From Clostridia bacterium (GTDB lineage: Bacteria > Bacillota > Clostridia > TANB77 > CAG-465), in assembly GCA_026415435.1 (NCBI GenBank), contig JAOAHC010000040.1, positions 1 through 64,000 on the forward strand: a DNA stretch of 64,000 nt, given 5' to 3'. The notes under the pieces are model-generated. The model saw nothing but the letters and a program-made list of their open reading frames with translations. It was not told where the DNA came from and did not search any database. Each line of letters opens with the position of its first letter. Positions within the stretch are counted from its first letter, which is position 1. Shown piece by piece: positions 48,776 to 62,058 of the stretch. A program made the translations under genes and the position numbers.

Positions 48776-48928
48776 AGTTATAAAAACTCCTTTACAAATA
48801 TTATAGTTAATATTATTATAGTCTTTAATGTATAGAAAGTCAATATAATTTTACATAAAATATTTATATGAAGTATAAAAAAATATCATCTGTAAATACT
48901 AATATAGAATTAAAAAGAGGTGAGTTTT

Positions 48929-50857
48929 GTGTATAATACAATAAAATTAAATAAAAATTATGATGATACTTATGAACTTTTGGTATATTGTCACTCTAAA
49001 CTTGATACAGAATTTGGTTTAGATTTTTTGTCACGAGAAAATATAAAAAAAGATGTAGATTCTGTTTTAAAATATATTAGAGTTAATGCTAACAAAATTA
49101 AAGTTAATAGTGTAAAAATAATAGTGGGGGGGATAGTTATAGCTACTATTCCATTTACAAACTTTTTTAATGTTTACGGTACGGATGTTCAAAAATATAG
49201 TATGGCATATTTATATTCTACAACAAGTTCAGGGCAGATTTCAGATATTGATAAAACCAATAACGCCATTAATACTGTTTCTCCAAGTTACTTTAATATA
49301 CAGGCTGATGGTAGTTTACAAATTGGTAATATAAGTAGTGATTTAATTAATTACTGTCATAGTAAAGGTTTAAAAGTTATACCTTTTTTAAGTAATCATT
49401 GGGATAAGCAAGCTGGTATAGCTGCACTTAATAATGCTGATAATATGACAACTGATCTTGCAAATTATATTGTTCAATATAACCTAGATGGTATAAACAT
49501 TGATATTGAAAATGTAACAGAAGCAGAGAAAAACCTATACACTAATTTTGTAGCAAAGCTACGCTCAAAGTTACCTAATACCAAGGAAATTTCAGTAGCT
49601 GTAGCTGCTAATCCAAATAGTTATATTACTGGCTGGCACGGTTCATATGATTATACTGGTCTTGCTAATAACTCAAATTATATTATGGTTATGGCATATG
49701 ATGAACATTGGCAAGGAAGTGCACCAGGACCTATTGCAAGTATAACTTTTGTAGAAAATTCAATTAAATATGCAACTTCCAAAACATCTACTGATAAAAT
49801 AGTTCTAGGAATTCCTTTCTATGGTAGAATTTGGAGTGATGATAGTAATTTTAATGGAAACGGTGTAACATTAGATAAAGTAAGTAAACTAATTTCTGAT
49901 TATGGTGCCACAGTAACCTACGATGGGATTCAACAATCACCAAAAGCCACTTTTACAGTCAAATCTTCAGATATAATTAATACAATAAATGGTAAAACTT
50001 TAATTCCTGGAACTTACACTATATGGTATGAGAATGAGACTTCAATTCAACATAAACTAGGTCTAGTTACTAAATATGGTTTAAAGGGAACTGCTGTTTG
50101 GGCAATAGGTCAAGAACCTAGTACAATATGGCAAAATTATTCTTCATGGTTAAATCCATCATCTACACCTACAATACCAAATATAACTCCAAGTATAACA
50201 CCTGAGCAAACAGTTATTAAAACTGGTACAGTAAATACAAATATATTAAATGTTAGAAGTAGTCCTTCTACAAATTCAAAAATTTTAACCACTCTTAAAA
50301 AAAATGATATTGTAAATATTTATGCTGCTAATAATGGTTGGTATACTATTAGGTTATCAAATGGTCAAAATGCATACATAAGTGATAGTTACGTAAATAT
50401 TAAAAACAACTCTACCAATACTGCACCCACATCTAAAACTGGAATTGTGACTACAACTACACTAAACGTAAGAAGCGGTCCTTCTACTAAAACAAAAATA
50501 ATGTCATCGCTAAAAAAGAATACTTCTGTTACGATTATATCAACAAATAATGGATGGCATACTATTAAATTAAGCAATGGACAAATAGGATATGTAAGTG
50601 GTACATATGTAAAATTAAATTCAACTTCAACAAGTGTAAGTACAGGTACATCAACAACAACATCTACTAAAACTGGAATAGTAAATACCTCTATATTAAA
50701 TGTAAGAAGTGGTCCTTCTACTGGATATAAGGTAATATCTAATCTTAGAAAAAACACTACCGTTAGTATTATTTCAACAAGTGGTGGTTGGCACAAAATT
50801 AAATTATCTAATGGGCAAATAGGATACATTAGCAGTTCTTATGTATCTATAAAGTAA
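48929..50857 (+). CDS. GH18 family glycosidase with three C-terminal SH3 domains
   Basis: A 642-residue surface or spore-wall hydrolase. Residues 1-65 form a cytosolic-looking N-terminus, followed by a membrane helix (KIIVGGIVIATIPF). The GH18 barrel (about 75-415) holds LDGINIDIEN, where Glu 194 is the expected acid in the D-x-x-D-x-D-x-E pattern, and the later MVMAYDEHW and GIPFYGRIW strands. Three bacterial SH3 domains follow (about 431-491, 504-564 and 582-643), each with LNVRS-x-PS and GW-x2-I. It probably acts on peptidoglycan or a spore-cortex polymer like YaaH-type proteins. GTG 48920 lies within the AGGTGAG ribosome site, so GTG 48929 is chosen. Confidence 0.87.
   Translation: MYNTIKLNKNYDDTYELLVYCHSKLDTEFGLDFLSRENIKKDVDSVLKYIRVNANKIKVNSVKIIVGGIVIATIPFTNFFNVYGTDVQKYSMAYLYSTTSSGQISDIDKTNNAINTVSPSYFNIQADGSLQIGNISSDLINYCHSKGLKVIPFLSNHWDKQAGIAALNNADNMTTDLANYIVQYNLDGINIDIENVTEAEKNLYTNFVAKLRSKLPNTKEISVAVAANPNSYITGWHGSYDYTGLANNSNYIMVMAYDEHWQGSAPGPIASITFVENSIKYATSKTSTDKIVLGIPFYGRIWSDDSNFNGNGVTLDKVSKLISDYGATVTYDGIQQSPKATFTVKSSDIINTINGKTLIPGTYTIWYENETSIQHKLGLVTKYGLKGTAVWAIGQEPSTIWQNYSSWLNPSSTPTIPNITPSITPEQTVIKTGTVNTNILNVRSSPSTNSKILTTLKKNDIVNIYAANNGWYTIRLSNGQNAYISDSYVNIKNNSTNTAPTSKTGIVTTTTLNVRSGPSTKTKIMSSLKKNTSVTIISTNNGWHTIKLSNGQIGYVSGTYVKLNSTSTSVSTGTSTTTSTKTGIVNTSILNVRSGPSTGYKVISNLRKNTTVSIISTSGGWHKIKLSNGQIGYISSSYVSIK
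50218..50857 (+). repeat. Three tandem SH3-domain coding repeats
   Basis: Three copies of about 180 bases (starting near 50218, 50440 and 50675) are joined by Thr/Ser-rich linkers. Copies two and three are most alike (both LNVRSGPST, KLSNGQIGY), suggesting a recent duplication. This is a protein repeat, not a CRISPR or mobile repeat. Confidence 0.8.
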
Positions 50858-50990: not shown

Positions 50991-52277
50991 ATGCAAAAGA
51001 AAAATGAAGTAACTAACATAAGAAAATATAATACAAAGTTATATTTGATATACAAAATGGTATCTAATGATTTACTGTTTTTTTACGCAGTAGATTTTTT
51101 ATTTTTAACACAAGTGAAGGGAATAGCAGTTTCAAAAATACTTCTTGCTGAGGCAATATATACAGTTTTTCGTATTTTACTTCAAATACCTTGTACTTTA
51201 CTAGTTAACAAGATAGGAAATAAATTGTCATTAATTATAGGTAATATTTCTCTTGCAATGAGTGTAGTATTAATAATTTTTTGTAATGATTTTCAGATGC
51301 TTATTATTTCCAATCTATTTGCAGCATTTGCATGGACTTTAAAAGGAATAACGGCACCGGCCCTATTATATGATATTTTACCAAGTAATGAAAAGAGCGG
51401 CAATTTATATTCAAAAATTGATGGTAAAGGAACCTCTTATTATTACTATATGGATGCTGTAGGTTCTATATTATCAGGTTTCCTATTTGTAATAAATCCA
51501 TATATTCCTATTATTATATGCTTAGCTTTATCTATATATGGAATATATGTTGTTATTAAAATAAAAGATGTGCAAAACACTGAAATAAATGATACACACA
51601 ATATGACTATAAGAAGTGAATTTAGAGATTTAAAATATGCATTAAAATATATGATGAACTCGAGAAGATTATCAAGTCTACTTTTATTTTATAGTACAGT
51701 ATCTGGTTTTATGATATTCTTTGGAATATATAGAAAAAGCTTACTTGCAGATTTACAGGTTCCAGCACAATATTTTGGTATTATTTTTGCAATTTTAGGA
51801 ATAATATCGGCATTATCATCAAGCCATCAAATTATGTATCATAAGAGATATAAAAATAGAACTTTAACTAGGCTTTCAATGTCATTTATAGGTGCTTCAA
51901 TTATAATTGGTCTAGTTCCACTTATAGGATTACCTTTACAAAATACAATTGTTATTGTTATGGCCATGTTTATAATTCAATATATTGTTATAGAACCTTT
52001 TTACTCATTAAGTAAAAGGTATTTGGGTAACTTTTCTGATTCAAATTTAAGAATAAAGATATATTCTATAACGTCATTATTTCAAAGTTTGGTAAGAGTA
52101 ATAATTGCATTTATAAGTTCATTTATGCTTTCTATAACCAGTACGGCAACAACAATAATAATAATGTCATATATTTTTGGAACAATGGCAATTTTCATGC
52201 TAATTTATATGAAAAATAAGGTTGGATTAAAACCAGAAGAATATAGTAAAGAAGATATAGAATATCTTAGAAATTAA
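50991..52277 (+). CDS. MFS family transporter
   Basis: A 428-residue major facilitator superfamily protein with about twelve helices in two halves and a cytoplasmic loop near residues 185-215. The first loop has the DFLFLTQVKGIAVSKI and VNKIGNKLSLIIGN segments (the motif A position, but without the classic GxxxDRxGR). Drug or metabolite export is the usual default, but nothing here fixes the substrate. AAGGGAG precedes the ATG. It is a single-gene unit between two terminators. Confidence 0.8.
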   Translation: MQKKNEVTNIRKYNTKLYLIYKMVSNDLLFFYAVDFLFLTQVKGIAVSKILLAEAIYTVFRILLQIPCTLLVNKIGNKLSLIIGNISLAMSVVLIIFCNDFQMLIISNLFAAFAWTLKGITAPALLYDILPSNEKSGNLYSKIDGKGTSYYYYMDAVGSILSGFLFVINPYIPIIICLALSIYGIYVVIKIKDVQNTEINDTHNMTIRSEFRDLKYALKYMMNSRRLSSLLLFYSTVSGFMIFFGIYRKSLLADLQVPAQYFGIIFAILGIISALSSSHQIMYHKRYKNRTLTRLSMSFIGASIIIGLVPLIGLPLQNTIVIVMAMFIIQYIVIEPFYSLSKRYLGNFSDSNLRIKIYSITSLFQSLVRVIIAFISSFMLSITSTATTIIIMSYIFGTMAIFMLIYMKNKVGLKPEEYSKEDIEYLRN

Positions 52278-52404: not shown

Positions 52405-55400
52405 ATGAAAAGTTCCCTTAATCCTATCTTTGTTGAGGCAAAAGAAAACTATAATATAGTCTCTCAAACATACAAAATTTTAGAAACTACATATGACATG
52501 AAATTATCTATACATCCTGCAGGGCAGTGGATACTTGATAATATGTATATAATTGAAAATGAGTACTCTAAGATAAGAGAAGATGCAAGTGTCTTAAAAA
52601 GAAAAAAGTTACCTGTTATTAAAACTCATAATGGTGATAAATATATTGCAATTTACTATCTTGCTTATGAGCTTATTGAAAACAATACAGGTTACGTCGA
52701 TCAAAACATTATATTAAAATGCTTAAAAGATTATCAGAAGTTATCTTATCTAACTTCTGAAGAATTAGATTTATTTATACTTATGCTTAGATTAAATTTA
52801 TTAAAATTTATTGCAAGAGTTTCACTAAATATTTTAAATAGTCAAAACCAAAAAATGAATGTTGAAAAGATCTTAAATAAAAATATAGAAAACTTTAATA
52901 TTCTAAGTGAAATTTTATTTCAGGATCTAAACAATTTTAAAAATAAAATTATTGATATAGGTAAGATAAAAAATACAAATACTGCATTCGTAGAATATAT
53001 GGCTTTTAGATTAAAAGATCTAGGAGTAGAAGGAGATAAGTACTTTAATATTTTAACAGCGGAAGCAGACAAAATCGGTTTTACTGTTGAAGAAGCAATT
53101 ATAAAAGAACATATGGAGGTTGCAAAAACTACAAGTCTTGTAGGTAGAGCAATCCTATCATATAAGCAATTAAATGGTATAAATTTTAGAGAAATATTTG
53201 AAAAAGTTAATAAAATAGATGAATCATTAATGTATGATTATACAAATGAATTTATAAAATGTGATTATAAGACAAAAGCAAGATATAGGGAATATATTAT
53301 TAAATTAGCTAAAAAATATTCATTATCTGAAGTGTATATAGCAAAAAAAGCAGTTGATTGTTCAAAAAAATATAGTAAACACGTTGGCTTTTTTCTTGTT
53401 GGTGATGATAAATGTTTATTAAAAAAAGAATTATCAAAATCATATATTTTTGATAAAATGTATTATAGTTTAATAAAACCATTAGGTTCATATTTTTATA
53501 TTATTTCCATGTTACTAATAGCACTTTTATCCGCAATTTTGGTTACAACTAGACTTGCTAACTTTAACAATATAATTGGTAATCTTTTAGTTGCATTTAT
53601 TTCTTTTGGATTTATCCTTGAAATATGGGAAAAGACAATCAATTATGTTATACGAAAATCAACTGGTCCTAAAATTTTACCAAGATTTGATTTTGCAAAA
53701 TCTGTAGATGAAAAAAATATTACTTATGTAGTAATGCCGAGTGTTATTTCATCCATTGAAAAGTTGGATAATTTAATTAAGAAGATGGAAATAACTTACC
53801 TCGCAAATAGATCTAATAATATGTATTATATGTTGCTTGGAGACTGCGTTTCTAGTGATAAGGAATATATTGACATAGATGGCAAGATAGTGGAGTATGC
53901 TAAAGAAAGATTAGATGAATTAAATAGTAAATATCCTAGCAACCATAATTTGTTTAATTTTATTTATAGAAAAAGAGTATATAGTAAAGGTGAAGATTGC
54001 TATATGGGATGGGAAAGAAAAAGAGGAGCTCTTTCTCACTTTAATAAACTCGTATTAAACAGATTAAATATAAAAGAGATCGATAAATATATGTATCTTA
54101 TTTATGATGATGTTGTTGAAGCAAAGTATGCTATAACTATAGATGAAGATACTATGCTTTCTCTAAACACTGCTAAAGATTTGGTATCTATAATGGCTCA
54201 TCCGCTAAATAAACCTGTTCTATCTAAAAATCAAAAGATAGTTGAAAAAGGTTATGGTCTAATTCAACCGGCAGTTGGTCTTGATATAGTTGCAGCTAAC
54301 AAAAGCATATTTTCAAAAATATTTGGTGGTTTTGGTGGGTTAGATATATATACCACTGCCGTATCCAATGTATATCAAGATCTTTTTGAAGAAGCTATAT
54401 TTTGTGGAAAAGGGATATATGATATTGAACTTTATGAAAAACTACTAGATGAAGAAATACCTGAAAACTTAGTTCTTAGCCATGATTTATTAGAAGGTTC
54501 ATTTTTAAAAGCTGGACTTGCTTCTGATATTGAAGTACAAGATGGATTTCCAAATAATTATATTGCATATATGAAAAGAAATCATAGATGGTATAGAGGA
54601 GATATGCAAATAATAAAGTGGCTAATTAGTCCTTATTCAAATTTAAATTTCTTATCAAAATGGAAAATATTTGACAATATAAGAAGACCTATGTTAGAAG
54701 TTTGCGCATTTATTGCATTAATTATCTCTTTATTTACATCACTTACTCTATTTTCAGATGTAGTATTGATTACATTTATGGTTATAAATTTTGGATATAT
54801 AATATCTATAGCTGATATAATTGTGTTTGGTAAAAGCACTCATACCAGAGAAATACAGTACATTCCTCTTATTCATGGGATAGACTCTGTCTTCCTAACT
54901 ATGTGTTTTAGATTTTTGACAATACCATATAGTGTATATATCACAGTTGATGCTTTCTTAAAATCTATTTATAGAATGCTAATATCAAAAAAGCACTTAC
55001 TAGAATGGACTACTGCCGAAGTATTAGATAAAAATGCTAAAGGAAGCTTATCTTATTATATATTTAATATGATTCCAAATATAATTTTTGGTGCATTAAT
55101 ATTAATTTATATAAATTCAAGCTTTGTTACTTATGATTATAATATACATAAGTATTCTTTTATATTTATTACTGTAGTCGCTATATTTTTTATACTCACA
55201 CCATTTCTTGCATATTTGTTAGGAAAGAGTCATTTATTTGGAAGAAATGAACGTTTAGATAGTAAAAAAGAAGAAGAAGTTTTAGAAGTTGCAAAAAGAA
55301 CTTGGACATTTTTTGATAGTATGATGACACAAATAAATAACTATTTACCAACTGATAATTTTCAAGAAAATAGAAGATATAAAATAGCAAATAGAACATC

Positions 55401-57954
55401 TTCTACAAATATTGGTTTTGGTGCAATGGCTATTATTAATGCATATGATCTTAAGTTTATTAGTGAAAACGATGCGGTAATTAGACTTAATAATTTCTTT
55501 GCAACCATAAAAAAACTTGATAAATGGAATGGACATTTATATAATTGGTATAATATAAAAACTTTGGAGCCATTAAGACCTAGATTTGTATCAACAGTTG
55601 ATAGCGGTAATTTTATTGCTTGCCTATACGTTGTTAAACAATTTCTTATCGAAATAAGAGATAATACAAATAAAATTCCTGATGACTATAACTATAGAGA
55701 TTACAAAACTATAAATGAGTTATTTGACTACATAGATGAATTAATTTTAGATACTGATTTTTCAAAACTGTATGACACTACGAGAAATCTATTCTCAATT
55801 GGTTATGCACAAGAAACTGGAAAGTTAATAGATAGTTACTATGATATGTTAATGTCAGAGAGCAGAATTACAAGCTTAATTGCAATTGCTTCTCGCCAAG
55901 TTACTTCTAAACATTGGTTTACACTATCAAGAAATCTAGTAAACTTAGATGGATATAAGGGTCTTGTTTCATGGACAGGTACTGCCTTTGAATACTATAT
56001 GCCATATCTATTTAATAAATCATATGAGCATACCTTAATAGATCAATCACTATTTTTTGCAAAATATAGTCAAAAAAAATACTCTAAGATAAATAATGTC
56101 CCTTGGGGTGTTTCTGAATCAGCTTTTGCTATTAAAGATGGTGAACTAAACTATCAGTATCAAGCTTTTGGTATTCCATGGCTTGGACTTAAAAGAGGCC
56201 TTAATGACTATTTAGTAATTTCACCATATTCTTCATTACTTATGATAGAATTTGCTCCTCAAGAAGTATATAAAAATATAAAAGCTTTAAAAAGCATAGG
56301 AGCATATTCAAGTTTTGGTTTTTATGAATCAATTGATTATACAAGACAACATCTTCCAGAAGATACTAAATATGAAGTTGTTAAAACGTACATGGCTCAT
56401 CATCAAGGTATGATTTTGACTGCAATAAACAACTATATAAATAAATCTATAATAAAAAATAGATTTCATAGAAATCCTGATATTTTAGCTTGTGATATTT
56501 TATTAAAAGAAAGAGAAAGATTAAAATCTAATATTACTCAAAATATAGATAAAAAAGAGAACACATTTAAACAAAAAGATATTAGCATATATACACCATT
56601 TGTACATCAAGATATAGTAACTCCAGATACAAACACTAGAAACTTTCATTTATCTCTATTAAAAGGAAGTGAAATTTCATCAATAACTACTAGTAACGGT
56701 GGTACTTACTTAATGTATAATGATAAAATTGTAAATAGACAAAGATATACCAATATTAATTCTAGCGGAAACTATGTATACCTTACAGATAAACAAAGTG
56801 GTGTAACGTTTCCTACTACTGATTGTGATCCAAAATATGCAAAAAACAAGTGTATGTTTGTATCAACACTTAATTCAACTGAGTATTATAAAGAAGTGAA
56901 TGATCTAGAAGTAAATACAAGCGTATTTTTATCACAAGAATACAGTATAGAAATAAGAAAAATAAGTATATATAATAATAGTGATATTAGAAGAGAAGTT
57001 ACAATAAATACATATGTTGAACCAGCCTTGACTGATTACATGACAAATGTGGTTCATCCTGCATTTAGTAATTTACAAATAGAAACTTATTACGATAAAG
57101 ATTTGGATGTGTTAGTTGCTAGTAAAAGGCAAAAAAACGAGACAGATAAAGAATTATATGTGTATACAAAACTAATAGGAATAGATCTTGAAAAAGATGT
57201 AGAAACTGAGAAATCTAAACTTGAAAACAACTTACAAAATGATGTTTATGATTCAAATATAACTAGATATCCTCTTTGGCCTATACTTTCATATAGAGCA
57301 AGTATAATTTTAGATCCACATGAACGACAAGAATTTTACTACATACTTGGTGTGGCAGATAATAAATATAAAATATCAAATACTATAATAAATTTAGATG
57401 AGGAAAGTATCTCAAAACAATATAAATTATGTATTGATCTAAATAACTTAACTGCTAGATATTTAAAACTTGAATCAGGTAAAGCTCATGTGTATAACGA
57501 AATTATAAAAGAAGCTTTATTTGAAAAAAACAATATGGATAAAAGCGATTTCTGGAACGAAAATTTAAGCCAGTCAATGCTTTGGAAATATTCTATATCA
57601 GGTGATTTTCCAATAATATTAGTAAATATTAATAAAATTGAATCTGCTGGTATAATAGAAGAAATAATCAATTTTATGGATTATGCTAAAAATAGAAAAA
57701 TAACCCTTGATATAGTTATATTAATTGATGAGGAAATGCTACAATATGGACCTATATATACCTATGTGAAAACAAGAATTGACAGAGCTACATACACTGA
57801 ATATACAAAAGGAAATATATATGTTCTAAATATTAGAAATCTAACTAATACTGAAGTTAAACTACTTACATTTTTATCTAAAAAATATATTACAGATATT
57901 AATGTTTTCTTACCAAAGGGAAATGAAGAGGTGCATGAAAATGAAAACCAATAA
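52405..57954 (+). CDS. Cyclic beta-1,2-glucan synthase, part 1 (GT84 and cyclisation domains)
   Basis: A 1849-residue membrane enzyme like NdvB/Cgs and the Thermoanaerobacter CGS. In order: a soluble N-terminal region (HPAGQWILDN, about 34-350), a helix pair (about 360-400), the GT84-type transferase with TIDEDTMLSLN (about 579) and RNHRWYRGD (about 725), six or so helices (about 760-950), a glucoamylase-like (PF10091/GH189-type) cyclisation domain with KWNGHLYNWYN, FVSTVDSGNF and HHQGM (about 965-1365), and a beta-sandwich (about 1410-1620). The usual GH94 module is absent and encoded by the next gene. AGGTG precedes ATG 52405; an in-frame ATG at 52324 lies within the terminator. Confidence 0.88.
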   Translation: MKSSLNPIFVEAKENYNIVSQTYKILETTYDMKLSIHPAGQWILDNMYIIENEYSKIREDASVLKRKKLPVIKTHNGDKYIAIYYLAYELIENNTGYVDQNIILKCLKDYQKLSYLTSEELDLFILMLRLNLLKFIARVSLNILNSQNQKMNVEKILNKNIENFNILSEILFQDLNNFKNKIIDIGKIKNTNTAFVEYMAFRLKDLGVEGDKYFNILTAEADKIGFTVEEAIIKEHMEVAKTTSLVGRAILSYKQLNGINFREIFEKVNKIDESLMYDYTNEFIKCDYKTKARYREYIIKLAKKYSLSEVYIAKKAVDCSKKYSKHVGFFLVGDDKCLLKKELSKSYIFDKMYYSLIKPLGSYFYIISMLLIALLSAILVTTRLANFNNIIGNLLVAFISFGFILEIWEKTINYVIRKSTGPKILPRFDFAKSVDEKNITYVVMPSVISSIEKLDNLIKKMEITYLANRSNNMYYMLLGDCVSSDKEYIDIDGKIVEYAKERLDELNSKYPSNHNLFNFIYRKRVYSKGEDCYMGWERKRGALSHFNKLVLNRLNIKEIDKYMYLIYDDVVEAKYAITIDEDTMLSLNTAKDLVSIMAHPLNKPVLSKNQKIVEKGYGLIQPAVGLDIVAANKSIFSKIFGGFGGLDIYTTAVSNVYQDLFEEAIFCGKGIYDIELYEKLLDEEIPENLVLSHDLLEGSFLKAGLASDIEVQDGFPNNYIAYMKRNHRWYRGDMQIIKWLISPYSNLNFLSKWKIFDNIRRPMLEVCAFIALIISLFTSLTLFSDVVLITFMVINFGYIISIADIIVFGKSTHTREIQYIPLIHGIDSVFLTMCFRFLTIPYSVYITVDAFLKSIYRMLISKKHLLEWTTAEVLDKNAKGSLSYYIFNMIPNIIFGALILIYINSSFVTYDYNIHKYSFIFITVVAIFFILTPFLAYLLGKSHLFGRNERLDSKKEEEVLEVAKRTWTFFDSMMTQINNYLPTDNFQENRRYKIANRTSSTNIGFGAMAIINAYDLKFISENDAVIRLNNFFATIKKLDKWNGHLYNWYNIKTLEPLRPRFVSTVDSGNFIACLYVVKQFLIEIRDNTNKIPDDYNYRDYKTINELFDYIDELILDTDFSKLYDTTRNLFSIGYAQETGKLIDSYYDMLMSESRITSLIAIASRQVTSKHWFTLSRNLVNLDGYKGLVSWTGTAFEYYMPYLFNKSYEHTLIDQSLFFAKYSQKKYSKINNVPWGVSESAFAIKDGELNYQYQAFGIPWLGLKRGLNDYLVISPYSSLLMIEFAPQEVYKNIKALKSIGAYSSFGFYESIDYTRQHLPEDTKYEVVKTYMAHHQGMILTAINNYINKSIIKNRFHRNPDILACDILLKERERLKSNITQNIDKKENTFKQKDISIYTPFVHQDIVTPDTNTRNFHLSLLKGSEISSITTSNGGTYLMYNDKIVNRQRYTNINSSGNYVYLTDKQSGVTFPTTDCDPKYAKNKCMFVSTLNSTEYYKEVNDLEVNTSVFLSQEYSIEIRKISIYNNSDIRREVTINTYVEPALTDYMTNVVHPAFSNLQIETYYDKDLDVLVASKRQKNETDKELYVYTKLIGIDLEKDVETEKSKLENNLQNDVYDSNITRYPLWPILSYRASIILDPHERQEFYYILGVADNKYKISNTIINLDEESISKQYKLCIDLNNLTARYLKLESGKAHVYNEIIKEALFEKNNMDKSDFWNENLSQSMLWKYSISGDFPIILVNINKIESAGIIEEIINFMDYAKNRKITLDIVILIDEEMLQYGPIYTYVKTRIDRATYTEYTKGNIYVLNIRNLTNTEVKLLTFLSKKYITDINVFLPKGNEEVHENENQ

Positions 57955-59980
57955 AGATGAGTTAATTGCTTTTAATTCTTATGGTGGATTTGATACAACA
58001 AATAATGAATATCACATTTTAAATACAAATACACCTCTTCCTTGGTGTAATATTATAGCTAATGAGCATTTCGGAAGTATAATTTCTAACAAAGGTACAG
58101 TATATACCTATTACAAAAATAGCCGTGAATTCAAACTTACAAACTGGTGTAATGATTGGGTAACCTTTGAGCCAGGTGAAAGATTTAAAGGTATATTTGA
58201 ATATGACTATAACATAATATATGGTTTTGGATATGTTAAAGTTATAGAAGAAAATGAGTTTATTTCTAAATCAATGGATATATTTATTCCTAATAATAGT
58301 GATGTTAAAATTCATTATATCACATTGAAAAATAAGACAGAAGTTGAACAAAATCATAAAATTGAATATATTTTAGAACCTACAATGGGTGTTAGTAAAG
58401 AAATTAGTGGTATGTATATTATATGTAAAGAAATAAATGATTCTATGTGTTTTAAAAATCCATATAACCTTGAATTTTCTGATAATACAGCCTTTGTAAC
58501 TGTTGTTAGTGAAAATAACTTTGTTATGACAGAATATGATTCAAGTAACTTTACTACAAAAGTAGATATATCTATACCAAAAAATGGAAGTATTTCATTT
58601 GCCATAATATTAGGTGTCAGTGAAAAAAATGGTATTCAAATTAATGATATTTTGGCTCAATATGATAATATGATAAAAATTCAAGATTCTCACAAAAATA
58701 CAAAAAAATATTGGAGTGACTTAGTTGTAAAAAATTTCTCTACAGGAGATAAATATATAGATATACTAGCTAATGGTTGGTTACTTTATCAAACAATAGT
58801 ATGTAGACTTTATGCAAGAAGTGCATTTTATCAATCAGGGGGAGCAATTGGATTTAGAGATCAATTACAAGATAGTTTAGCATTAATTTCATCATGGCCG
58901 GAAAAAACAAAAAATCAAATTATTCTTCATTCTAGTAAACAATTCGAAAAAGGAGATGTCCTTCATTGGTGGCATGAACATAATAATGCAGGAATAAGAA
59001 CATATTTTAGTGATGATTATCTGTGGTTACCATATGTTACAACTGAATATATAAAACTGACTAATGATTTATCAATATTAGATATTAAAGCTAAATATTT
59101 GGAAGACAAACCAATGGGTAACAAAAGGGAGCTTTATGAAGTATTTTATAATATTGAAACTGAAGCAAGTATATACGAACATTGCAAAAAAGCAATATTA
59201 TATGGGTTAAGTAGAATAAGTGAAGATAATGGACTTTTAGATATAGGTGATGGTGACTGGAATGATGGATTTAGTAACATAAGAGGTCAGTCTGTTTGGC
59301 TTACTTTCTTCATGATGGATATTTTGGATAGATTTTCAAGCTTAGCTAGTCATAAAGAAGATAAAGAAATGACTGATATATGCAAAAAATACATACATAA
59401 ATTTAAGCATAGTATTATTGCATATGCATGGGATAACGGCCATTTTGTAAGAGCATTTTATGAAAATGGTGAAGTTTTAGGAGCAAGTTCTAATGAAGAA
59501 TGTAAAATCGATTTAATATCTCAAGCATGGGCAGCTATTGCACTTAAAAAGTTTCCAGATTTAGAACATGAAATTAATCAATCATTGGATGCTGCTGAAA
59601 AATATTTAGTTGATAAAAATAATATGATTGTGAGTTTACTATATCCTGCATTTGACAAACCAAAAAATAATCCTGGATATATCAAAGCATATGTTCCTGG
59701 TACTCGTGAAAATGGTGGCCAATATACGCACGCAGCAATTTGGCTTGCTAAGGCATATTTTGAAGTAGGTAAATATGATAAAGGTATTGAAATATTAAAA
59801 TATTTAAATCCTATATATCATAGTGATAATAAACAAAAAGCTGATATTTATATGGTTGAACCATATGTGCTTGCAGCTGATGTATACACCAATCCAGACC
59901 ACATAGGCAGAGGAGGATGGACTTGGTATACAGGCTCATCAGCTTGGATGTATAAAACAATCGAAGACTTTATGAAATAA
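57941..59980 (+). CDS. Cyclic beta-1,2-glucan synthase, part 2 (GH94 phosphorylase domain)
   Basis: A 679-residue GH94 protein matching the C-terminal module of fused cyclic glucan synthases. It starts with the module boundary pattern LIAFNSYGGFDTTNNEYHI and has an N-terminal beta-sandwich (NTPLPWCNIIANEHFGSII, SREFKLTNWCNDW). The (alpha/alpha)6 catalytic barrel includes GFRDQLQDSLAL, WWHEHNNAGIRTYFSDDYLWLPY and DGDWNDG (437-443), which carries the catalytic Asp. GAGGTG sits 7 bases before ATG 57941, inside the upstream gene, so the genes overlap by 14 bases in different frames. In studied synthases GH94 trims linear chains by phosphorolysis and sets ring size. Confidence 0.9.
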   Translation: MKTNKDELIAFNSYGGFDTTNNEYHILNTNTPLPWCNIIANEHFGSIISNKGTVYTYYKNSREFKLTNWCNDWVTFEPGERFKGIFEYDYNIIYGFGYVKVIEENEFISKSMDIFIPNNSDVKIHYITLKNKTEVEQNHKIEYILEPTMGVSKEISGMYIICKEINDSMCFKNPYNLEFSDNTAFVTVVSENNFVMTEYDSSNFTTKVDISIPKNGSISFAIILGVSEKNGIQINDILAQYDNMIKIQDSHKNTKKYWSDLVVKNFSTGDKYIDILANGWLLYQTIVCRLYARSAFYQSGGAIGFRDQLQDSLALISSWPEKTKNQIILHSSKQFEKGDVLHWWHEHNNAGIRTYFSDDYLWLPYVTTEYIKLTNDLSILDIKAKYLEDKPMGNKRELYEVFYNIETEASIYEHCKKAILYGLSRISEDNGLLDIGDGDWNDGFSNIRGQSVWLTFFMMDILDRFSSLASHKEDKEMTDICKKYIHKFKHSIIAYAWDNGHFVRAFYENGEVLGASSNEECKIDLISQAWAAIALKKFPDLEHEINQSLDAAEKYLVDKNNMIVSLLYPAFDKPKNNPGYIKAYVPGTRENGGQYTHAAIWLAKAYFEVGKYDKGIEILKYLNPIYHSDNKQKADIYMVEPYVLAADVYTNPDHIGRGGWTWYTGSSAWMYKTIEDFMK

Positions 59981-60086: not shown

Positions 60087-60127
60087 ATAGTAGTTGAATA
60101 ACAAATATTTAAATTGGAGGATTAGTG

Positions 60128-61411
60128 ATGAACTTAAAAATTGAAAAACAAGATAATTCAAAAATAGTAATTGAATTTACTATGTCAAAAGAAGAATTTA
60201 ATGAAAGCCTAGATAAAGCTTTTGTAAAAAATGCTAGATATTTTAAAGTACCTGGATTTAGAAATGGTAAAGTACCAAGAGCAATGGTTGAAAAGCTATA
60301 CGGTGAAAGTGCTTTATATCAATCTGTAATTGAAGATACTGTTGATTTAGAATTTTCAAAAGCAGTTGTTGAAAACAATTTAGAAGTAGTTTCAAAACCT
60401 GAACTTGATGTAAAACAAATCGGTAAAGATAAAGAGTTTATTTTTGCTGTAACTTTCTTTGTTAAACCAGAAGTAAATGTAAAAAAGTATAAAGGTCTAG
60501 AGATAGAAAAAGTAAAAATTGAAGTTACAGATGAAGATATAAACAAAGATATTGAAGAAACTAGAAATAAGAATGCAAGAATTATAAATGTAGATAATAG
60601 ACCTCTACAAAACGGTGATATATCTAAAATAGATTTCGAAGGTTTTGTTGATGGTGTTGCTTTTGAAGGTGGTAAAGGTGAAAACTTTGATCTAACAATT
60701 GGAAGCGGTCAATTTATACCAGGATTTGAAGATCAACTTATCGGTATGAATGTAGGTGAAACTAGAGAAATTAAAGTTACTTTCCCTACTGAATATCATA
60801 GTGAAAACTTGGCTGGTAAAGAATCTATGTTTAAGGTAAAGTTAAATGAGATCAAAACTAAAGAATTACCTGAATTAGATAATGAATTTGCAAAAGATGT
60901 TTCTGAATTTGATACTTTAGACGAATATAAAAAAAGCGTATCTGAGAAATTATTAAAAGTAAAAGAAAATCAAGCTAATGCTCAAAAAGAAACAAATATT
61001 ATAAATGCTTTAGTAGAAAATGTAGAAGCATCTATACCAGAATCAATGATAGAATCTCAAATTGATGAAACATTGGAACAGTTTGCTGCTAATTTATCAT
61101 ACCAAGGTTTAACTATTGAAAAATATGCTGAACTTCTTGGAACAAATATGGAAGGTATTAGAGCGCAATTTAGACCTAATGCAGAAAAAGATGTTAAATT
61201 AAAACTTGCACTTGAATTTATAAATAAAACTGAAAATGTAGAAGTAAGTGATAGTGATATTGATGCTAAAATCGATGAATTATCTACTCAATATGGTTCA
61301 GATAATGCTGAAAATTTAAAATTAAATGATAATGTAAGAAAATATATGAAAGAAAAACTACAACAAGAAAAAGTCTTAAAATTTGTTATTGATAATGCAA
61401 TTGAAAAATAA
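60128..61411 (+). CDS. tig: Trigger factor
   Basis: A 427-residue ribosome-bound chaperone and peptidyl-prolyl isomerase. The N-terminal ribosome-binding signature is FKVPGFRNGKVPR (about 39-51). The FKBP-like domain contains DFEGFVDGVAFEGG, IPGFEDQLIGM and VTFPTEYH (about 170-235), and the helical C-terminal domain has two long arms (about 255-420). GGAGG lies 7 bases before ATG 60128; a GTG at 60125 is also in frame but worse spaced. Followed by clpP and clpX, the usual order in Firmicutes. Confidence 0.96.
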   Translation: MNLKIEKQDNSKIVIEFTMSKEEFNESLDKAFVKNARYFKVPGFRNGKVPRAMVEKLYGESALYQSVIEDTVDLEFSKAVVENNLEVVSKPELDVKQIGKDKEFIFAVTFFVKPEVNVKKYKGLEIEKVKIEVTDEDINKDIEETRNKNARIINVDNRPLQNGDISKIDFEGFVDGVAFEGGKGENFDLTIGSGQFIPGFEDQLIGMNVGETREIKVTFPTEYHSENLAGKESMFKVKLNEIKTKELPELDNEFAKDVSEFDTLDEYKKSVSEKLLKVKENQANAQKETNIINALVENVEASIPESMIESQIDETLEQFAANLSYQGLTIEKYAELLGTNMEGIRAQFRPNAEKDVKLKLALEFINKTENVEVSDSDIDAKIDELSTQYGSDNAENLKLNDNVRKYMKEKLQQEKVLKFVIDNAIEK

Positions 61412-61449
61412 GTTTTATTACATAATATAATTTAAAGGAGGTTATTTAT

Positions 61450-62058
61450 ATGTATAATAGTTTAGTACCTATGGTTATTGAACAAACAAGCAAAGGTGAG
61501 AGATCTTATGATATATACTCACGTCTTTTAAAAGAGAGAATTATATTTTTAGCTGATGAAGTAAACGATGTTACTGCTTCTTTAGTAATAGCTCAATTAC
61601 TGTTTCTAGATGCCGAAGATCCAGGAAAAGATATTTTTCTATATATAAATAGTCCTGGTGGTAGCGTATCTGCTGGTATGGGAATATATGATACAATGCA
61701 ATATATTAAATCTGATGTTTGTACCATCTGTGTAGGTATGGCCGCAAGTATGGGAGCATTTTTACTTGCAGCAGGAAAAAAAGGAAAAAGATATGCACTT
61801 CCTAATGCTACTATTATGATACATCAACCTTTAGGTGGAGCTCAAGGTCAAGCAAGTGATATAAAAATTCATGCTGAGCACATTATAAAAACTAAGGAAA
61901 AGTTAAATAGAATACTTAGTGAAAGAACAGGAAAACCACTTGAGCAAGTAGAAAAAGATACGGATAGAGATAACTTTTTATCTGCTTTAGAAGCTAAAGA
62001 ATATGGTTTAATTGATGATGTAATGGATAGCATAAATAACATAGTTAAGGAGAAGTAG
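61450..62058 (+). CDS. clpP: ATP-dependent Clp protease proteolytic subunit
   Basis: A 202-residue serine protease of the ClpP tetradecamer. The catalytic Ser is in GMAASMGAF (Ser 100), the His in MIHQPLGG (His 125), and an Asp lies near 174 in [20 protein letters not shown]. The hydrophobic N-terminal stretch and [18 protein letters not shown] segment are standard. AAAGGAGG precedes the ATG by about 10 bases. It ends two bases before clpX begins, and the two gene products work as one machine. Confidence 0.97.

Follow-up and report, generated by a model that had tools for sequence, protein, structure and literature searches.

What does it mean for a cyclic beta-1,2-glucan synthase (CGS) to be encoded by two genes? 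The described examples of this enzyme are single chains, in which GH94 phosphorolysis trims the glucan and GH189 cyclises it (PMC10901819, PMC11842490, PMC10834661). In the window, that is, the whole 64,000-nucleotide stretch analysed, Pfam and comparison with Agrobacterium tumefaciens Cgs and with TiCGS confirm the reading of the first-pass annotation that the GT84, GH189 and GH94 content lies in two overlapping genes. ORF1 (52405..57954, + strand) encodes 1849 aa from its ATG. ORF2 (57941..59980, + strand) encodes 679 aa from its own ATG, 7 nt after a Shine-Dalgarno-like GAGGTG (57928..57933, + strand), and its first 14 nt overlap ORF1 in a frame shifted by +1. The separate ATG, the GAGGTG and an overlap in another frame are as first described. 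GAGGTG is found upstream of the ORF1 ATG at 52405 as well. As the host genome (1.45 Mb, 94% complete) contains one PF17167 place and one PF10091 place, ORF1 and ORF2 are the only copies found in it. All parts of a synthase are present but spread over two chains, so the pair is classed as a split variant and not as a typical CGS. Its product, judged by homology, is probably cyclic beta-1,2-glucan.

ORF1 corresponds to a membrane-bound synthase/cyclase subunit. It comprises, all on the + strand, an N-terminal domain (NTD, 52426..53403; phmmer to 8rf0 and a domain HMM), a GT84 region with transmembrane (TM) helices (53656..55098), a GH189 cyclisation domain (55261..56583), the first GH94 beta-supersandwich or GP1 (56641..57363; Pfam PF06165, AlphaFold2 model and Foldseek to 8rfe), and a Rossmann-fold-like subdomain or RFL (57436..57903; domain HMM, AlphaFold2 model and Foldseek). 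A variable charged tail follows (57904..57954, + strand), a remnant of the RFL-GP2 linker, which holds the ribosome-binding site of ORF2 and the overlap. ORF2 comprises the second GH94 beta-supersandwich, GP2 (57956..58660, + strand; Pfam, alignment to Cgs and Foldseek), and the catalytic (alpha/alpha)6 barrel, GP3 (58694..59974, + strand). Pfam detects Glycoamylase/GH189 and GH94_b-supersand (GP1, residues 1421-1651) on ORF1, and the second supersandwich and the GH94 catalytic domain on ORF2. By hydropathy only, TM segments are seen in ORF1 and none in ORF2.

The residues expected for activity are in place (numbering of P0001, which begins two codons ahead of the ORF1 ATG). In GT84, D482, D582, D696, R730/W731 and the primer tyrosine Y651 align to D527, D624, D739, R773/W774 and Y694 of Cgs. 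The GH189 residues E1154 and E1240 are equivalent to E1356 and E1442 of TiCGS, and GP3 of ORF2 exhibits the general acid D442 (equivalent to D2528) and H597. The GT84 UDP-binding and catalytic aspartates, the RW motif, Y651, the GH189 glutamate and histidine pairs and D442 are invariant in family f1, which spans five genera, and the same GT84, GH189 and GH94 activity residues are nearly invariant in the compared sequences outside f1.

The break had been placed exactly at a module boundary, but it falls inside GH94. ORF1 aligns to residues 59-1115 and 1254-1941 of Cgs (8rf0), and ORF2 to residues 2043-2760. In Cgs, GP1 starts at 1536 and RFL covers 1847-2012, followed by GP2 and GP3 (PMC10901819). 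As ORF2 begins at about Cgs residue 2043, past RFL, the split corresponds to RFL|GP2, within the GH94 module. The break cuts through the chain-length-control module, not beside it. A break at the GH189|GH94 boundary is ruled out by Pfam and by the Cgs alignment, which place GP1 and RFL on ORF1. The AlphaFold2 model of ORF1 residues 1405-1851 (pLDDT 84, pTM 0.84) matches Cgs 8rfe in Foldseek with a TMq of 0.84, and that of ORF2 (pLDDT 87, pTM 0.90) matches 8rfe with a TMq of 0.89. GP1 and RFL are predicted to keep a confident Cgs-like fold on ORF1, and ORF2 is predicted to fold as GP2-GP3. In the fused proteins of order-mates from families f3 and f4, a variable linker of 40-50 residues between RFL and GP2 lies exactly at the split position. 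A foreign GH94 gene acquired separately is ruled out, as ORF2 best matches the GP2-GP3 region of CGS and adjoins ORF1.

The overlap of the frames in the window and the use of MAG data could suggest an assembly error, a sequencing indel or a programmed frameshift that joins both frames into one protein. The other genomes of family f1 leave this reading with a negligible probability. Both halves are found as separate frames in 36/36 genomes, this one and 35 relatives, and none is fused, with open frames of 1836-1890 aa for ORF1 and mostly about 680-720 aa for ORF2, a few broken or contig-end cases aside. We scored 32 junctions, a few of which come from second copies in, or further records of, genomes already in the set. 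In 31 of them, ORF2 starts between -14 and +37 nt from the ORF1 stop; in the remaining one, where ORF1 ends early, it starts at +129 nt. Frame relations 0, 1 and 2 occur 10, 16 and 6 times, respectively, so that independent genomes show every frame relation and real gaps of up to about 37 nt. As no constant frame relation exists, programmed frameshifting or recoding is ruled out. Nearly all scored ORF2 starts are preceded by a match of at least 5/6 to AGGAGG, compared with 1.6% of 1,392 control ATGs inside ORF1 genes; the ORF2 start was picked by Shine-Dalgarno score among few candidates, which introduces a small bias. Together, the 36 genomes, the varied frame relations and the dedicated ribosome-binding sites rule out an assembly error or a recent frameshift and bear out the gene fission first proposed. 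Translational coupling, which had been proposed along with it, is likely.

Some f1 loci deviate from this pattern. G031 is broken in both halves and G028 in ORF2, G006 has one stop in ORF1, and in G009 the two halves are on two contigs. The broken frames of G031 (L024/L069/L090) and G028 (L028) correspond to either a pseudogene or a MAG sequence error. Separately from these loci, a frame of 26,764 residues is listed for L036 (G136:C1:240662-241936), which is probably a masked-N run and not a real frame.

ORF1 and ORF2 are adjacent in the scored f1 loci, and the pair is followed in many f1 members (L061-L070) by trigger factor and clpP, at 60125-62058 in the window. The upstream MFS gene (window 50991-52277) was not found beside the pair in the relatives searched, and no exporter was recognised among the neighbours of the pair. 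Upstream of the MFS gene (window 48920-50857), a 645-aa protein combines, judging by eye, three SH3-like repeats with a glycosidase-like domain.

With regard to the C-terminus, ORF2 is not complete, contrary to the initial view that both halves were. Every inspected f1 ORF2 stops just past the barrel (...WMYKVIEDYL) and lacks the usual C-terminal tail of about 75 residues, which is present in the inspected relatives outside f1, except for G503 and the truncated frame of G039. G503 (L150), which belongs to an unrelated split lineage, has thus lost the GH94 tail as well. This loss, the broken frames of G031 and G028, the small f1 genomes (1.1-2.1 Mb) and a fast stem branch in the tree could indicate that a reduced genome is losing its phosphorylase half, the fission being a first step of this decay. 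Nevertheless, we consider this very unlikely. Near pairs give dN/dS values of 0.04-0.12 in ORF1 and 0.05-0.15 in ORF2; both halves are under purifying selection in f1. The catalytic residues are invariant, ORF2 is retained in every f1 genome of all five genera, and it has its own Shine-Dalgarno sites. The first-pass annotation had likewise argued against decay, and selection and the kept catalytic residues agree with it. The rate of GP2 relative to GT84 is 1.81 in the split family f1 and 1.18 in the fused family f3; this somewhat faster GP2 could reflect a relaxed interface.

A segment is missing from ORF1 too: its GH189 domain does not have the insertion of about 120 residues that forms a 4-helix motif in A. 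tumefaciens Cgs. Loss of this 4-helix dimer motif is ruled out as the cause of the split, as the fused order-mates also lack it.

Comparison with other Clostridia, which the first-pass annotation had called for, showed that the split is conserved in a clade, f1, and that sister families are fused. The inspected order-mates of families f3 and f4 have fused proteins of 2,620-2,804 aa, and a fused frame is present in about a hundred of the 391 sampled Clostridia genomes (hand count from the list). In the same sample, the RFL|GP2 split is also found in family f5 and in G360, G424, G482, G503 and G519. Other positions of the break exist. The three checked genomes of family f2 (L106, L107 and L108) are all split at GP1|RFL, with frames of 1,668+920, 1,687+936 and 1,667+908 residues. 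L146 (G520) is split at CY|GP1 into frames of 1,346 and 1,332 residues, the whole GP1-GP3 phosphorylase being a gene of its own. Within f5, L111 (G056) and L152 (G039) exhibit a three-piece synthase: one break, with overlapping frames, separates the catalytic part of GT84 from the TM part behind it, and another lies at RFL|GP2. Further breaks, at GT84|CY in G057 and within CY in G043 and G201, could be sequence errors.

At least five changes of the RFL|GP2 trait are needed on the trees, which are unrooted and on which fission and re-fusion look alike. A single clade for all RFL|GP2 splits is rejected (lnL difference 700, AU p = 6.8e-08), which rules out a single ancient split, whereas f1 and f5 as one clade is not rejected (AU p 0.38). 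Judging from these trees, the RFL|GP2 break recurs in unrelated clostridial families and has several origins. A search of the open-access literature for split CGS found none.

How the two proteins work can be approached through enzymes of known structure. In the 1,2-beta-oligoglucan phosphorylase LpSOGP (PDB 5h3z), Ndom1, Ndom2 and the catalytic barrel correspond to GP1, GP2 and GP3, and the pocket is formed where Ndom1 meets the catalytic domain (PMC5309861). Ndom1 and Ndom2 plus barrel are on one soluble chain in LpSOGP, whereas ORF2 has one sandwich and the Ndom1 counterpart, GP1, sits on the membrane subunit ORF1. In A. tumefaciens Cgs, a glucan track runs along RFL-GP2-GP3, and the protein truncated at 1846 is inactive (PMC10901819). 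As the GP1 counterpart completes the pocket of LpSOGP and the track of Cgs spans RFL-GP2-GP3, we infer a complex with a shared site. We think it probable that ORF1 and ORF2 form a two-subunit synthase, created by fission at RFL|GP2 and held together by coupling and re-docking, in which the phosphorylase site is shared between the chains, and that ORF2 is not a free phosphorylase. The sequences show that the synthase, one gene in the sister families, is divided here at the variable RFL-GP2 linker, that each half has its own start and ribosome-binding site, and that f1 keeps the two together under purifying selection. In the proposed scheme, translational coupling would result in the ORF2 protein being made at the same spot as the ORF1 protein, and the ORF2 protein would dock back onto GP1 and RFL of the membrane-bound ORF1 protein. 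Both the phosphorylase pocket, made of the GP1 wall and the catalytic residues of GP3, and the RFL-GP2-GP3 glucan track would be rebuilt across two chains. The complex would then prime, elongate, trim and cyclise beta-1,2-glucan like the fused enzyme. In the isolated ORF2 model, the conserved active-site loops 297-302, 585-592 and 657-662 have a pLDDT below 50, which may fit, if weakly, a missing partner. The loss of the C-terminal tail, on the other hand, shows that the phosphorylase part has changed too, and we count it against the complex model.

ORF2 could also work without GP1, as homodimeric GH94 enzymes with one sandwich and a barrel do. It would then be an independent soluble beta-1,2-glucan phosphorylase, forming a homodimer in which GP2 of the other subunit completes the pocket and recycling linear glucan, while ORF1 would make rings without length control. 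GP2 plus GP3 is indeed the make-up of dimeric GH94 enzymes (cellobiose phosphorylase, Foldseek TMq 0.83), in which the pocket is closed by the Ndom of the other subunit (PMC5309861). The lack of a TM segment in ORF2 and the finding that the GP active site of A. tumefaciens is dispensable for growth (PMC10901819) point in the same direction. However, we regard independent action, which the first-pass annotation had suggested, as rather unlikely. GP1 and RFL are kept on ORF1 and are predicted to be still folded; as GP1 stays on the other polypeptide, a complex is likelier than an independently acting phosphorylase. ORF1 and ORF2 remain neighbours in the scored loci, and the best resemblance of ORF2 is to the GP2-GP3 region of CGS. 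Moreover, the C-terminal truncation that abolishes function in A. tumefaciens points to a scaffold role of this part, which a free ORF1 would lack.

The proposed two-subunit synthase differs in several respects from its closest known systems. A. tumefaciens Cgs (PDB 8rf0, 8rf9, 8rfe) exhibits the same order, NTD-GT84-GH189-GP1-RFL-GP2-GP3, the same catalytic residues and the primer tyrosine, but it is a single chain of 2,818 residues, whereas ORF1 and ORF2 are two chains broken at RFL|GP2; it also has the 4-helix insertion in its cyclase and a tail past its barrel, both absent here. TiCGS of Thermoanaerobacter italicus, the GH189 founder (PDB 8wy1), has the GH189 domain and the catalytic glutamate pair in common with ORF1; it is treated as one polypeptide (PMC10834661), and ORF1 has no insertion inside the cyclase. 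Cellobiose phosphorylase and other dimeric GH94 enzymes have the one-sandwich-plus-barrel make-up of ORF2 and a pocket built between two chains, as we propose for ORF1 and ORF2. In contrast to ORF2, they have a C-terminal segment, whereas ORF2 is genetically tied to GT84 and its substrate is inferred to be beta-1,2-linked.

The ORF1/ORF2 pair represents a natural, conserved and recurrent split of a known enzyme, and the recurrence of the break shows at which position so large an enzyme can be divided. Such a pair may be mislabelled by annotation pipelines as an incomplete synthase and a cellobiose-phosphorylase-like protein. The roles of the C-terminal domains of CGS, scaffold or length control, are hard to separate in a one-chain enzyme; the RFL|GP2 split provides a ready-made two-piece enzyme, in which both roles can be tested directly by adding or omitting ORF2. 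More tentatively, and with somewhat less than even confidence, we suggest that Clostridia repeatedly made the single-chain CGS multi-subunit, with the phosphorylase site between a membrane subunit carrying GP1 and RFL and a detachable GP2-GP3 subunit. If this is true, ring size and glucan recycling could be tunable by the amount or the docking of the second subunit.
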